Origin: Bacillota bacterium
Lineage (GTDB): Bacteria > Bacillota > Clostridia > Lachnospirales > CAG-274
DNA: 64,000 nt
Direction: 5' to 3'
Assembly: GCA_017460805.1 (NCBI GenBank)
Contig: JAFUAF010000037.1
Coordinates: 62,001 to 126,000, forward strand
Under the pieces are notes generated by a model. That model did no database searches. It saw only the letters and a program-made list of their open reading frames with translations, and was not told the DNA's origin. Positions 9,895 through 16,492 of this stretch are shown here, piece by piece. Positions within the stretch are counted from its first letter, which is position 1. Every line of letters starts with the position of its first letter. Made by a program: the position numbers and the translations under genes.

Positions 9895-9923
9895 TTGCAA
9901 TGTATTGGAATTTATGATATAAT
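9895..9923 (+). promoter_or_regulatory. Sigma-A promoter of the aspS-gatCAB T-box operon
   Basis: TTGCAA at 9895-9900, 17-nt spacer, TATAAT at 9918-9923; start expected near 9930. Confidence 0.8.
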
Positions 9924-9939
9924 TTTTAACAGATTTTAA

Positions 9940-10178
9940 AAGCGATGACAAAGAGAAGTAACATAAAAGAAACCTGACAGGGATATAAGGCCGTGGACTG
10001 AGAGCCTTATTCTTGACACTTTTGTGCGAATAACACTTTCGAGCCGACAGCGTGAAAAGAGATGAGTAATGCTGTACGTTTCCCGCGTTAAGGGCAAGAG
10101 GGTACTTCTGTACCGAAAAAAGGTGGCACCACGTTAATTCGTCCTTAGATACTTGTGTATTTAAGGACTTTTTTATTT
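9940..10178 (+). promoter_or_regulatory. T-box riboswitch upstream of aspS, Asn specifier (AAC)
   Basis: Stem I starts with the GATGA K-turn and AGAAGTA S-turn (9944-9960). The opposite strand holds CGAATAACA, followed by CTTT, which pairs with AAAG. The codon just before the conserved A is AAC (10032-10034), Asn. The same loop also contains GAA (10028-10030), Glu. The antiterminator T-box AAGGTGGCACCACG is at 10120-10133; its TGGC pairs with an NCCA end whose discriminator is G, as expected of tRNA-Asn. The terminator is GTCCTTA / TAAGGAC (10141-10147 with 10162-10168) plus a T-run. Uncharged tRNA should switch the operon on. Confidence 0.93.
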
Positions 10179-10208: not shown

Positions 10209-11531
10209 ATGATCAAAGCAAGCGGCGAGAGAACGATCACCGATTTAAGCATTGACGAGCTTATTGCGGCAGAGGGCACGGTCACTACCCACGGCGTTGT
10301 GTACAATGTGCGTGATATGGGCGATTTTGCCTTTATTATTTTAAGAAAAATAGGCGGCCTTGTGCAGTGTTTTTATGAAAAAACAGGCAGCGAGGAAGAA
10401 AAGGAGTTTTTGCGTGACGAGGCTTCTATCCGTGTTACGGGTCAGATACGCAAGGAAGAACGTGCGGTAAACGGTGTTGAGATAGCGGTGGAAAAGGTAG
10501 AACTTTTAGGCAGGCCAAAGGAAGAACTTCCGCTTAGCGTAAACAAGTACAGACTTAATATTGCTCTTGAAAACGAGCTTGGTCTTCGCCCCGTTACTTT
10601 AAGAAACGAGCAGAGAAGAAATGTATTCAAACTTCAGTCGGCTCTTGTTGAGGCTTTCAGAGAATATTTGGGCAAAAACGGTTTTACCGAGATAATGACA
10701 CCCAAGATCGTTGCTTCGGGTGCAGAGGGCGGTGCAAATATATTCAAACTGGACTATTTCGGCAAAAAAGCATATCTTGCACAGAGCCCCCAGTTCTATA
10801 AGCAGATGCTTATTCCCGTTTATGAGCGTGTATTTGAGATAGCACCCGTATTCCGTGCCGAAAAACATGATACGACACGCCATCTTAACGAATATATCGG
10901 CGTTGACTTTGAAATGGGCTTTATCAACAGCTTCTATGATGTAATAAATATGGAAACGGGTATGATAAAGTACGCCATGGAATTTTTAAAGGAAAAATAT
11001 CCCGATGTGCTTAAAAAATTGGGTGTTGAACTTCCCGTTATAAAGGATATCCCCTGCGTTACTTTCAAGGATGCAAAGGAAATGGTAGCCGAAAAGTATA
11101 ACAGAAAGATCAAGGATCCCTATGACCTTGAGCCCGAGGAAGAACGTCTTATCGGCGAACTTTTCAAAGAGGACTATGACAGCGATTTTGTTTTTGTAAC
11201 ACATTATCCTATCAAAAAACGTCCTTTCTATGCTATGGATGACCCCGAAAACGAAAAATACACTTTAAGCTTTGACCTTTTGTTCAGAGGACTTGAGGTA
11301 ACAACGGGCGGTCAGCGTATACATGACTATGACACACAGGTCAAAAAGATGATATTCAAGGGTCTTTATCCCGAGGACTTTGAAAGCTACTTAATGCTGC
11401 ACAAGTACGGCTGTCCTCCGCACGGCGGTCTGGGCATGGGTCTTGAGCGCTTTGTAATGAAGCTTATTGACGAGAAGAACATCAGGGCAACATCTATGTT
11501 CCCGAGAGATACAACAAGATTAAATCCGTAA
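10209..11531 (+). CDS. aspS: Aspartyl-tRNA synthetase, archaeal/non-discriminating type
   Basis: A class II synthetase of 440 residues, the short archaeal length rather than the ~590 of bacterial AspS. It has an N-terminal OB domain (about 15-100), then the class II motifs: PVFRAEKHDTTRHLNEY (motif 2) and GLGMGLERFVMKL (motif 3), with QSPQFYKQ between. Its placement before gatCAB, and an Asn-type T-box, argue that it charges tRNA-Asn with Asp for later amidation. ATG 10209 follows AAGGT. A direct AsnS function is unlikely given the neighbouring amidotransferase but needs family comparison. Confidence 0.9.
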   Translation: MIKASGERTITDLSIDELIAAEGTVTTHGVVYNVRDMGDFAFIILRKIGGLVQCFYEKTGSEEEKEFLRDEASIRVTGQIRKEERAVNGVEIAVEKVELLGRPKEELPLSVNKYRLNIALENELGLRPVTLRNEQRRNVFKLQSALVEAFREYLGKNGFTEIMTPKIVASGAEGGANIFKLDYFGKKAYLAQSPQFYKQMLIPVYERVFEIAPVFRAEKHDTTRHLNEYIGVDFEMGFINSFYDVINMETGMIKYAMEFLKEKYPDVLKKLGVELPVIKDIPCVTFKDAKEMVAEKYNRKIKDPYDLEPEEERLIGELFKEDYDSDFVFVTHYPIKKRPFYAMDDPENEKYTLSFDLLFRGLEVTTGGQRIHDYDTQVKKMIFKGLYPEDFESYLMLHKYGCPPHGGLGMGLERFVMKLIDEKNIRATSMFPRDTTRLNP

Positions 11532-11546: not shown

Positions 11547-12008
11547 TTGACAGCAGAAGAAAAGATCATTACCGCCATTGAGGAAGCTACGGGCATCCAG
11601 GTGACGGAAGAAAAAATTGATGCAGTCAAGTCACGCATCAATATGATATTTGATTATTTAGGCTATGAAGAGGGTAAGGCTCTTGCATCGGAGGACGGCG
11701 AAAAAGCTGCTCCGGACGCAAACGGCATTGACGACGAGCTTATTAAATACCTTGAAGAACTTTCACGTCTTACCCTTACCGAGGACGAGGAAAAGAAAGC
11801 AAAAGAGGATCTTACAAAGATACTTGACTATATAGATACGCTTAATCAGCTTGACACAGACAATGTTGAGCCTATGAGCCATCCGTTCCCGTACACAAAT
11901 AATTTCCGTGATGATGAAGTCAAGCCTTCGGAAGAACGTGAACTTATTCTTAAAAACGCACCGCAGCAGAAAGACGGCTGCTTCAAAGTGCCTACAACAG
12001 TAGAGTAA
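11547..12008 (+). CDS. gatC: Asp/Glu-tRNA amidotransferase subunit C with N-terminal extension
   Basis: The GatC core starts near residue 61 (IDDELIKYLEELSRLTLTE), includes TLNQLDTDNVEPMSHPF and ends with LKNAPQQKDGCFKVPTTVE, which wraps GatA in known structures. The first ~60 residues, a predicted helical segment and an acidic linker, are extra: GatC is normally ~95 residues, here 153. The TTG start at 11547 has AAAGGGGG about 9 nt upstream, supporting the long form. A shorter start at the internal Met (MIFDYLG, residue 33) cannot be excluded. Second gene of the T-box operon. Confidence 0.88.
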   Translation: MTAEEKIITAIEEATGIQVTEEKIDAVKSRINMIFDYLGYEEGKALASEDGEKAAPDANGIDDELIKYLEELSRLTLTEDEEKKAKEDLTKILDYIDTLNQLDTDNVEPMSHPFPYTNNFRDDEVKPSEERELILKNAPQQKDGCFKVPTTVE

Positions 12009-12021
12009 AGGGGGAGCGAAA

Positions 12022-13497
12022 ATGAGTTTTTCAAATAAAACTGCCCTTGAATTGGGACAAATGATAAAAAACAAGGAAGTCAGCTCCGTTGAGCTTACAA
12101 AGAACTTTCTTGCAAATATAAAGAAAACAGATGAAAAAATAAACGCATATATAACCGTTTTGGAAGATGAAGCACTTGCTCGGGCAGAAGCGGTGCAGGC
12201 CAAAATCGACAGCGGCGAACTTACATCTCCGCTTGCAGGTGTGCCTATGGCTATAAAGGACAATATCTGTACAAAGGATATTCTTACGACCTGCGGTTCT
12301 AAAATGCTTTACAACTTCAAGCCCGTTTATAATGCAACGGTTACCGAAAGACTGTTGAATAACGGTGCTGTAGTACTTGGCAAACTGAATATGGACGAGT
12401 TTGCAATGGGCGGCTCTACGGAAACATCCTACTTTGGCGCTGCTCACAATCCATTTGATTTAGAGAGAGTTACGGGCGGTTCTTCGGGCGGTTCTGCGGC
12501 GAGCGTTGCTGCGGATGAGTGCGCATATTCACTCGGCTCCGATACGGGCGGCTCTATCCGTCAGCCCTGTTCTTTCTGCGGTGTCAGCGGTATCAAGCCA
12601 ACTTACGGTGCTGTAAGCCGTTTTGGTTTGGTCGCGTTCGCATCATCTCTCGATCAGATAGGACCCGTAGGCCGTGATATTCGTGACTGTGCGGAAGTTT
12701 TAAGTGTTATTTCGGGTCATGACCCCAAGGATTCCACATCCGTAAAGGGCAAGACATTCGATTTTTCACAGAGCTTTACAAAAGATTTAAAGGGTATGAA
12801 GATAGGTCTGCCCACAAACTACTTTGGCAAAGGTCTTGACGAAGATGTTAAAAAGCCCGTTCTGGAAGCTGTTGAAACGTTAAAGAAACTCGGTGCGCAG
12901 GTAGAAGAATTTGAAATGACGATAGTTGACTATGCTATCCCCACATACTATGTTCTTGCGTGTGCAGAGGCAAGCTCCAACCTTTCAAGATATGACGGCA
13001 TCAAATACGGCTACAGAAGAAAAGACTGCGAGGATCTTATGGATGTTTACTATACTTCCAGAAGCGAGGGCTTCGGCATGGAAGTCAAGCGCCGTATAAT
13101 GCTCGGTTCTTTCGTTCTGAGCAGCGGTTACTATGATGCTTACTATAACAAGAGCCTGAAAGTACGCGGTCTTATCAAAAAGAGCTTTGACCAGGCGTTC
13201 AACGACTATGATATGATAATTTCGCCTGTTGCGCCTACTGTTGCATACAAGATAGGCGAAAATTCTTCCGACCCGTTAAAGATGTACTTAGGCGACATCT
13301 ATACGGTTTCCGTAAACCTTGCGGGACTTCCCGGTGTTTCCGTGCCCTGCGGTTTCGGCAAGGGCGATATGCCTGTGGGCTTCCAGCTTATAGGTCCTGC
13401 ATTCAGCGAGGCGAAGCTTGTTAAGGCGGCTTATGCGTTCCAGCAGTCAACGGACTTTCACACAAAAAAGCCCGCTATAGTAAAGGAGGGCAATTAA
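12022..13497 (+). CDS. gatA: Asp/Glu-tRNA amidotransferase subunit A (amidase)
   Basis: Releases ammonia from glutamine for transamidation of Asp-tRNAAsn or Glu-tRNAGln. The amidase signature is intact in 491 residues: catalytic Lys79 in MAIKDN, cis-Ser154 in TGGSSGGSAA and nucleophile Ser178 in LGSDTGGSIRQP. A GGGGAG lies before ATG 12022. It sits between gatC and gatB with gaps of 13 and 1 nt, so the three subunits are made together. Confidence 0.97.
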   Translation: MSFSNKTALELGQMIKNKEVSSVELTKNFLANIKKTDEKINAYITVLEDEALARAEAVQAKIDSGELTSPLAGVPMAIKDNICTKDILTTCGSKMLYNFKPVYNATVTERLLNNGAVVLGKLNMDEFAMGGSTETSYFGAAHNPFDLERVTGGSSGGSAASVAADECAYSLGSDTGGSIRQPCSFCGVSGIKPTYGAVSRFGLVAFASSLDQIGPVGRDIRDCAEVLSVISGHDPKDSTSVKGKTFDFSQSFTKDLKGMKIGLPTNYFGKGLDEDVKKPVLEAVETLKKLGAQVEEFEMTIVDYAIPTYYVLACAEASSNLSRYDGIKYGYRRKDCEDLMDVYYTSRSEGFGMEVKRRIMLGSFVLSSGYYDAYYNKSLKVRGLIKKSFDQAFNDYDMIISPVAPTVAYKIGENSSDPLKMYLGDIYTVSVNLAGLPGVSVPCGFGKGDMPVGFQLIGPAFSEAKLVKAAYAFQQSTDFHTKKPAIVKEGN

Positions 13498-16267: not shown

Positions 16268-16492
16268 ATTAAAAATTGTGAACATACGTTGAAGAAAGAC
16301 CAAGTTTGTATTTGTTACAACACAGAGAGCAGGGCGGCTGCTGAAAGCCTTGCAGTAAAATACAATTCCATACACTTTCGGAGTATGCGGCAGGCGTGCC
16401 TTAAAACGTGAATGAGGCTTTATTTTCAATAAAGTGAATTAAGGTGGTAACACGGGTATTCTCGTCCTTTGGGCTTGGATACCCGTTTTTTA
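16268..16492 (+). promoter_or_regulatory. T-box riboswitch upstream of tyrS, Tyr specifier (TAC)
   Basis: The specifier side reads CATACACTTTCGGAG; the codon just before the conserved A is TAC (16371-16373), Tyr, in the same position as AAC in the aspS leader. The T-box AAGGTGGTAACACG lies at 16441-16454; its TGGT fits a tRNA with discriminator A, as in tRNA-Tyr. The terminator is ACGGGTAT / ATACCCGT (16452-16459 with 16479-16486) plus a T-run. Confidence 0.93.

Follow-up and report, generated by a model that had tools for sequence, protein, structure and literature searches.

Does the leader of the aspS2-gatCAB operon in this window, the whole stretch of 64,000 nucleotides that was analysed, sense tRNA-Asn alone, or does it sense tRNA-Glu as well? 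The preliminary description of this DNA proposed a T-box for tRNA-Asn and pointed to a second triplet, GAA, in the same specifier loop. Were this a two-codon T-box, tRNA-Asn would read AAC, tRNA-Glu would read GAA and the operon would balance two amino acids. On this question the abstract of Saad 2013 is said to mention a single base shift. The precedent is the transamidation operon of Clostridium acetobutylicum (Saad 2013), for which a review, in the part available to us, describes a two-codon T-box with overlapping codons for Asn and Glu (PMC4052509). Passages of PMC4919913 and PMC7778990 likewise leave room for T-boxes with more than one tRNA ligand and, by the latter's account, TBDB examines frames -1, 0 and +1 only. 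In the accessible part of PMC2494555, one of the three aspS genes of C. acetobutylicum is listed as T-box regulated, and no T-boxes are reported upstream of the amidotransferase genes examined there.

A class I T-box precedes aspS2

The leader and its parts lie on the forward strand as follows.

9895 to 9923, + strand: promoter-like sequence TTGCAA-N17-TATAAT, matching 10 of 12 consensus positions, at a position compatible with the start of the leader
9936 to 10149, + strand: T-box leader (RF00230), 98.2 bits against a gathering score of 93, E 2.1e-20, covering the whole model (1-219)
9957 to 9960, + strand: AGUA, 5' half of the loop E (S-turn) motif of the specifier loop, assigned from its sequence by the motif definition given in the available part of PMC4695836
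10028 to 10030, + strand: GAA, probable 3' half of the same loop E as AGUA 9957-9960 and the proposed second codon
10032 to 10034, + strand: AAC specifier, complementary to the GUU anticodon of tRNA-Asn, placed by the Rfam match and by 35 of 35 leaders of the family
10120 to 10146, + strand: antiterminator, AAGG/CCUU (10120-10123 with 10143-10146) and ACG/CGU (10131-10133 with 10140-10142)
10124 to 10127, + strand: UGGC, antiterminator bulge, complementary to the tRNA 3' end (G73-CCA)
10141 to 10168, + strand: intrinsic terminator, a 12-pair stem followed by a T-run, -16.6 kcal/mol, z -8.1

The region holds two such promoter-like sites where shuffled sequence averages 1.2, weak evidence when taken alone. 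The specifier loop was found as it had been described, GAA-T-AAC-A at 10028-10035 (GAA 10028-10030, U 10031, AAC 10032-10034, A 10035), and it lies inside a T-box match above the gathering score. That AAC occupies the standard place was confirmed by the Rfam structure line: A and then CUUU (10036-10039) come after the codon, CUUU pairs with AAAG (9950-9953), and next comes C-GAGC, which forms the 3' strand of the K-turn motif. The tyrS leader, which had been used to calibrate this placement, has its T-box at 16280-16472 with TAC at 16371-16373, as claimed, albeit at 75.2 bits, below the gathering score.

The leader shares with the class I T-box of RF00230 a K-turn Stem I, an internal loop that holds the specifier with A after it, the AGUA/GAA loop E pair twice, an antiterminator of the UGGNACC kind and a terminator; the second loop E pair lies in the stem after Stem I (GAA 10054-10056, AGUA 10065-10068). 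We noticed no departure from the class, here with AAC as specifier; class I is the type of Bacillus subtilis tyrS, as defined in the part of PMC10482949 available to us. Minimum free energy folding of Stem I alone did not give the T-box fold (z -1.06, not significant).

The operon probably serves Asn-tRNA

Profile matches identified the four genes downstream and bear out the assignment of the leader to an aspS-gatCAB operon for Asn-tRNA synthesis.

10209 to 11531, + strand: aspS2, archaeal-type (non-discriminating) AspRS; NF003483 (aspartate--tRNA(Asn) ligase) 548.6 bits (cut-off 353), TIGR00458 403.1 (cut-off 368.4)
11547 to 12008, + strand: gatC, TTG start; TIGR00135 106.5 bits, residues 61-153
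12022 to 13497, + strand: gatA; TIGR00132 629.7 bits
13499 to 14938, + strand: gatB; NF004014 684.4 bits

The gatC product carries about 60 additional N-terminal residues ahead of the TIGR00135 domain. Of the 30 loci read, 20 have this extension (genera g1, g2, g4 and g6) and 10 lack it (g5, g7 and g8).

The genome of origin (2.99 Mb, 96.55% complete) encodes three PF00152 enzymes, namely a bacterial AspRS, LysRS and AspRS2, and AsnRS was not found in our scan of it, although at this level of completeness AsnRS or other genes may be missing from the data. GluRS and GlnRS are both above their cut-offs, as are three AsnB-type asparagine synthetases. Of 48 genomes in the family, 47 have a GlnRS above cut-off and 35 encode AspRS2. 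Since no AsnRS was found and GlnRS is present, the operon appears to be needed for Asn-tRNA and to have no clear duty in making Gln-tRNA; with GlnRS in the genome it has, by the same token, no clear need to sense Glu-tRNA.

The organism's own tRNA-Asn has the anticodon GUU, the discriminator G73 and a U1-A72 pair; according to the part of PMC4206432 available to us, U1-A72 is the form of tRNA-Asn in each of the 15 bacterial genera examined there that have an additional AspRS. Among the 37 tRNA matches of this genome (the anticodon scan left out one of 88 bases, G000:C43:62763-62850), the genes for tRNA-Asn and tRNA-Glu(CUC) adjoin at G000:C43:50385-50533 (L052), and similar neighbouring matches occur in several genomes of the family, for example G008, G037 and G041.

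AAC points to tRNA-Asn and not tRNA-Asp

All 35 aspS2 leaders of the family have a T-box upstream of the gene and AAC in the specifier place, followed by A in 34 of them and by G in one. The bulge of the window leader, UGGC, complements the NCCA end of the specified tRNA as the UGGNACC motif should and pairs G73 of the organism's own tRNA-Asn. A conserved AAC in the specifier and downstream genes of asparagine metabolism together mark the leader as Asn specific. The preliminary description, which preferred tRNA-Asn to tRNA-Asp, is upheld in its Asn reading by the codon, by the match between UGGC and G73 and by the genome scan, in which AsnRS was not found.

Given that the encoded synthetase is an AspRS, a response to tRNA-Asp deserves consideration. 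The bulge does not separate the two tRNAs, because tRNA-Asp also has G73, and GAC (Asp) stands in the specifier place of four distant aspS2 leaders seen at class level (L339, L363, L364 and L365). It is the codon that separates them: AAC, in the window and throughout the family, would mispair with the GUC anticodon of tRNA-Asp at the first position. The very fact that an aspS2 leader can be of the Asp type in distant genomes makes AAC in the window leader informative, and on this codon we rejected control by tRNA-Asp, the least probable of all the readings considered here and one to which we give next to no credence.

Proposed mechanism of the switch

We conclude that the leader is, with high probability, an ordinary class I, transcription-attenuating T-box specific for tRNA-Asn that controls aspS2-gatCAB. 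Computed features carry this conclusion: the T-box match, the position and conservation of the codon, the loop E partner, the discriminator match, a terminator and an antiterminator that exclude each other, and the gene content. The leader is a riboswitch of a known kind on an operon of a known type, and an ordinary sensor of Asn is the best reading of it.

The antiterminator (10120-10146, -2.5 kcal/mol) shares six positions (10141-10146) with the terminator, so the two structures cannot form together; with -16.6 kcal/mol on the side of the terminator, the default state is expected to be off. In the model that we infer for tRNA binding, antitermination, enzyme activities and the response in the cell, the specifier-loop codon AAC would be paired by uncharged tRNA-Asn(GUU), whose G73-CCA end would pair with the UGGC bulge of the antiterminator. 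From what is established for T-boxes in general, the bound tRNA would then stabilise the weak antiterminator and block the strong terminator, allowing aspS2-gatCAB to be transcribed; the products of the operon would make Asp-tRNA(Asn) and amidate it to Asn-tRNA(Asn). In this model GAA at 10028-10030 would act as the loop E partner of AGUA and would not be read as a codon.

GAA is probably a structural piece of the loop

The available text of PMC4695836 places opposing AGUA and GAA segments in internal loops of the Specifier Loop and Stem II in most T box RNAs, and that of PMC7583486 counts among the features of Stem I an S-turn (loop E) positioned above the specifier. In the window leader, AGUA 9957-9960 stands opposite GAA 10028-10030. 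To see how common such a GAA is, we turned to other T-boxes as controls: 97 in number, taken from the best-scoring matches listed, 8 came from the organism's own genome, 29 from loci and 60 from fetched regions. Their specifiers were placed by helix pairing and the downstream GA motif, with GAA playing no part in the placement, which succeeded for 93 and left four unplaced (L282, L286, L289 and L313). The window leader (L004) is not in the count, the tyrS leader (L009) was placed one base off and L327 is probably misplaced.

GAA lies 0-2 bases 5' of the specifier in 76 of the 93 placed control T-boxes of the family, among the matches listed, and is absent there from 17. In the 76 it adjoins the specifier directly in 34, is separated from it by one base in 39 and by two bases in 3, across eight specificities; the controls are related to one another and are mostly Leu, Phe and Val leaders. 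Among the other T-boxes of the organism's own genome, GAA precedes the specifier in four of eight (L001, L002, L006 and L008) and is absent from four. It also travels with its partner. Out of 57 aspS2 leaders, 35 have both GAA and AGUA, 19 have neither, two have GAA alone (L082, whose 5' side is partly N, and L171) and one has AGUA alone (L188), so that the two are present or absent together in 54 of 57 (Fisher 6e-12, the kinship of the leaders being ignored).

From these sequence patterns, the likeliest role of GAA at 10028-10030 is that of a conserved structural element in the loop, not that of a codon. A GAA beside a T-box specifier is usually loop E, and caution is warranted before it is called a Glu codon without further evidence.

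The window leader is unlikely to fit tRNA-Glu

GAA does occur in the loop, and the C. acetobutylicum T-box has in common with the window leader an Asn codon and an operon for tRNA-dependent amidation, as far as the source goes. The likeness stops at the codons. They overlap in C. acetobutylicum by the review's description, whereas in the window U separates them, so that GAA and AAC do not overlap: the first base of GAA is four positions upstream of AAC, a shift to frame -1 gives UAA and one to frame +1 gives ACA, and GAA falls outside frames -1, 0 and +1. The Clostridium precedent invoked earlier thus stands as a reported two-codon T-box but does not carry over to the arrangement seen here.

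The bulge leads to the same answer. In 92 loci of the organism's own genome and its relatives, tRNA-Glu has A73 in 61 of 61 calls (45 CUC, 16 UUC), tRNA-Asn has G73 in 46 of 46 and tRNA-Asp has G73 in 10 of 10; discriminators were located by a constant offset from the T-loop, and genes in overlapping loci were counted more than once. Only one tRNA-Glu gene, with the anticodon CUC, was found in the assembly itself, and A73 for tRNA-Glu(UUC), the reader of GAA, is therefore taken from relatives. By the general T-box rule for the acceptor end, UGGC pairs G73 but not A73 of tRNA-Glu, and so does not suit both acceptors.

With loop E accounting for GAA as it does in most control T-boxes, no overlap between GAA and AAC, UGGC facing A73 and GlnRS in the genome, the proposal that GAA preserves a role for tRNA-Glu finds no support. 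We rejected GAA as a second codon, and consider a two-codon T-box at this locus highly improbable in spite of the published precedents.

Could an ancestor have sensed both tRNAs?

The family as a whole is less uniform than the window leader alone would suggest. Of the 35 leaders, 23 have G immediately before AAC, 6 have U and 6 have A, and an overlapping GAA is therefore not kept throughout the family. The bulge is UGGC in 6 and UGGU in 29; UGGU fits G73 only by wobble and pairs A73. On inspection of the 35 leaders, the bulge base showed no evident link with the base that precedes AAC. The window leader is the only one of them with both a base other than G before AAC and UGGC and, on these two features, is the family member least likely to admit tRNA-Glu.

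One may ask, then, whether the ancestor of the family sensed both tRNAs through overlapping GAA and AAC and whether the species in the window later specialised to Asn, with U before AAC and UGGC. A relative with GAAGAACA and UGGU would have the form at issue. G before AAC, which creates an overlapping GAA, in 23 of 35 family leaders and in all 22 further placed leaders, the prevalence of UGGU in the family and the solitary position of the window leader would all be in keeping with such a history. Against it, G commonly precedes the specifier in the family's other T-boxes as well (in GAA-N-codon loops N is G in 36 of 39: 21 Phe, 11 Val, 2 Cys, 1 Met and 1 Thr), so that no explanation by Glu is needed there, and GlnRS is above cut-off in all but one of the 48 genomes. 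We regard this history as unlikely, though less so than two-codon sensing in the window leader itself; it is compatible with an Asn-only reading of that leader.

Leaders outside the family

At order level 68 upstream regions were fetched, some of them shortened by contig ends, and 25 contain a strict T-box motif. A rule that demands AAC placed the specifier in 21 of these and placed nothing in four. Every one of the 21 has G before AAC and a UGGU bulge. G directly precedes AAC in 22 of 22 further placed aspS2 leaders outside the family, a count that is partly circular because the placement rule demands AAC.

Nineteen of the 21, lying among L165-L212 and all from other families of the order, lack both GAA and AGUA, with mostly RGG as the bases before AAC; the exceptions are L171, with GAA but without AGUA, and L188, in which AGUA was seen by eye upstream of Stem I. 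The loop-E-less leaders share with the window an AAC-A specifier upstream of aspS2 and a T-box antiterminator, and differ from it in having no AGUA/GAA, an overlapping GAA/AAC and a UGGU bulge. Dual sensing, if it is common among the leaders seen, would sit in these order-level leaders outside the family, and those without loop E are the better place to look for it. There may be two architectures of the aspS2-gatCAB T-box, one without loop E in other families, sensing tRNA-Asn and tRNA-Glu, and one with loop E in the family of the window species, which in that species would be restricted to Asn by loss of both features that could admit tRNA-Glu. We put this forward very tentatively, as a scheme that is probably not correct. 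If it were true, a riboswitch for two tRNAs would here have narrowed its specificity. The analysis also singles out leaders suitable for a real test of an overlapping GAA/AAC.

Retrieval at class level added 33 regions, nine of which showed a loose T-box motif. L366 and L367 read GAAG-AAC-A. In the Rfam alignment, L335 and three loci from named records (L136, L138 and L139) read GAAG-AAC-U, and the latter three have gatA and gatB motifs downstream. Upstream of aspS2 in one class-level genome there is also a match to 6S RNA, on the - strand of the fetched stretch (L341:275-460).
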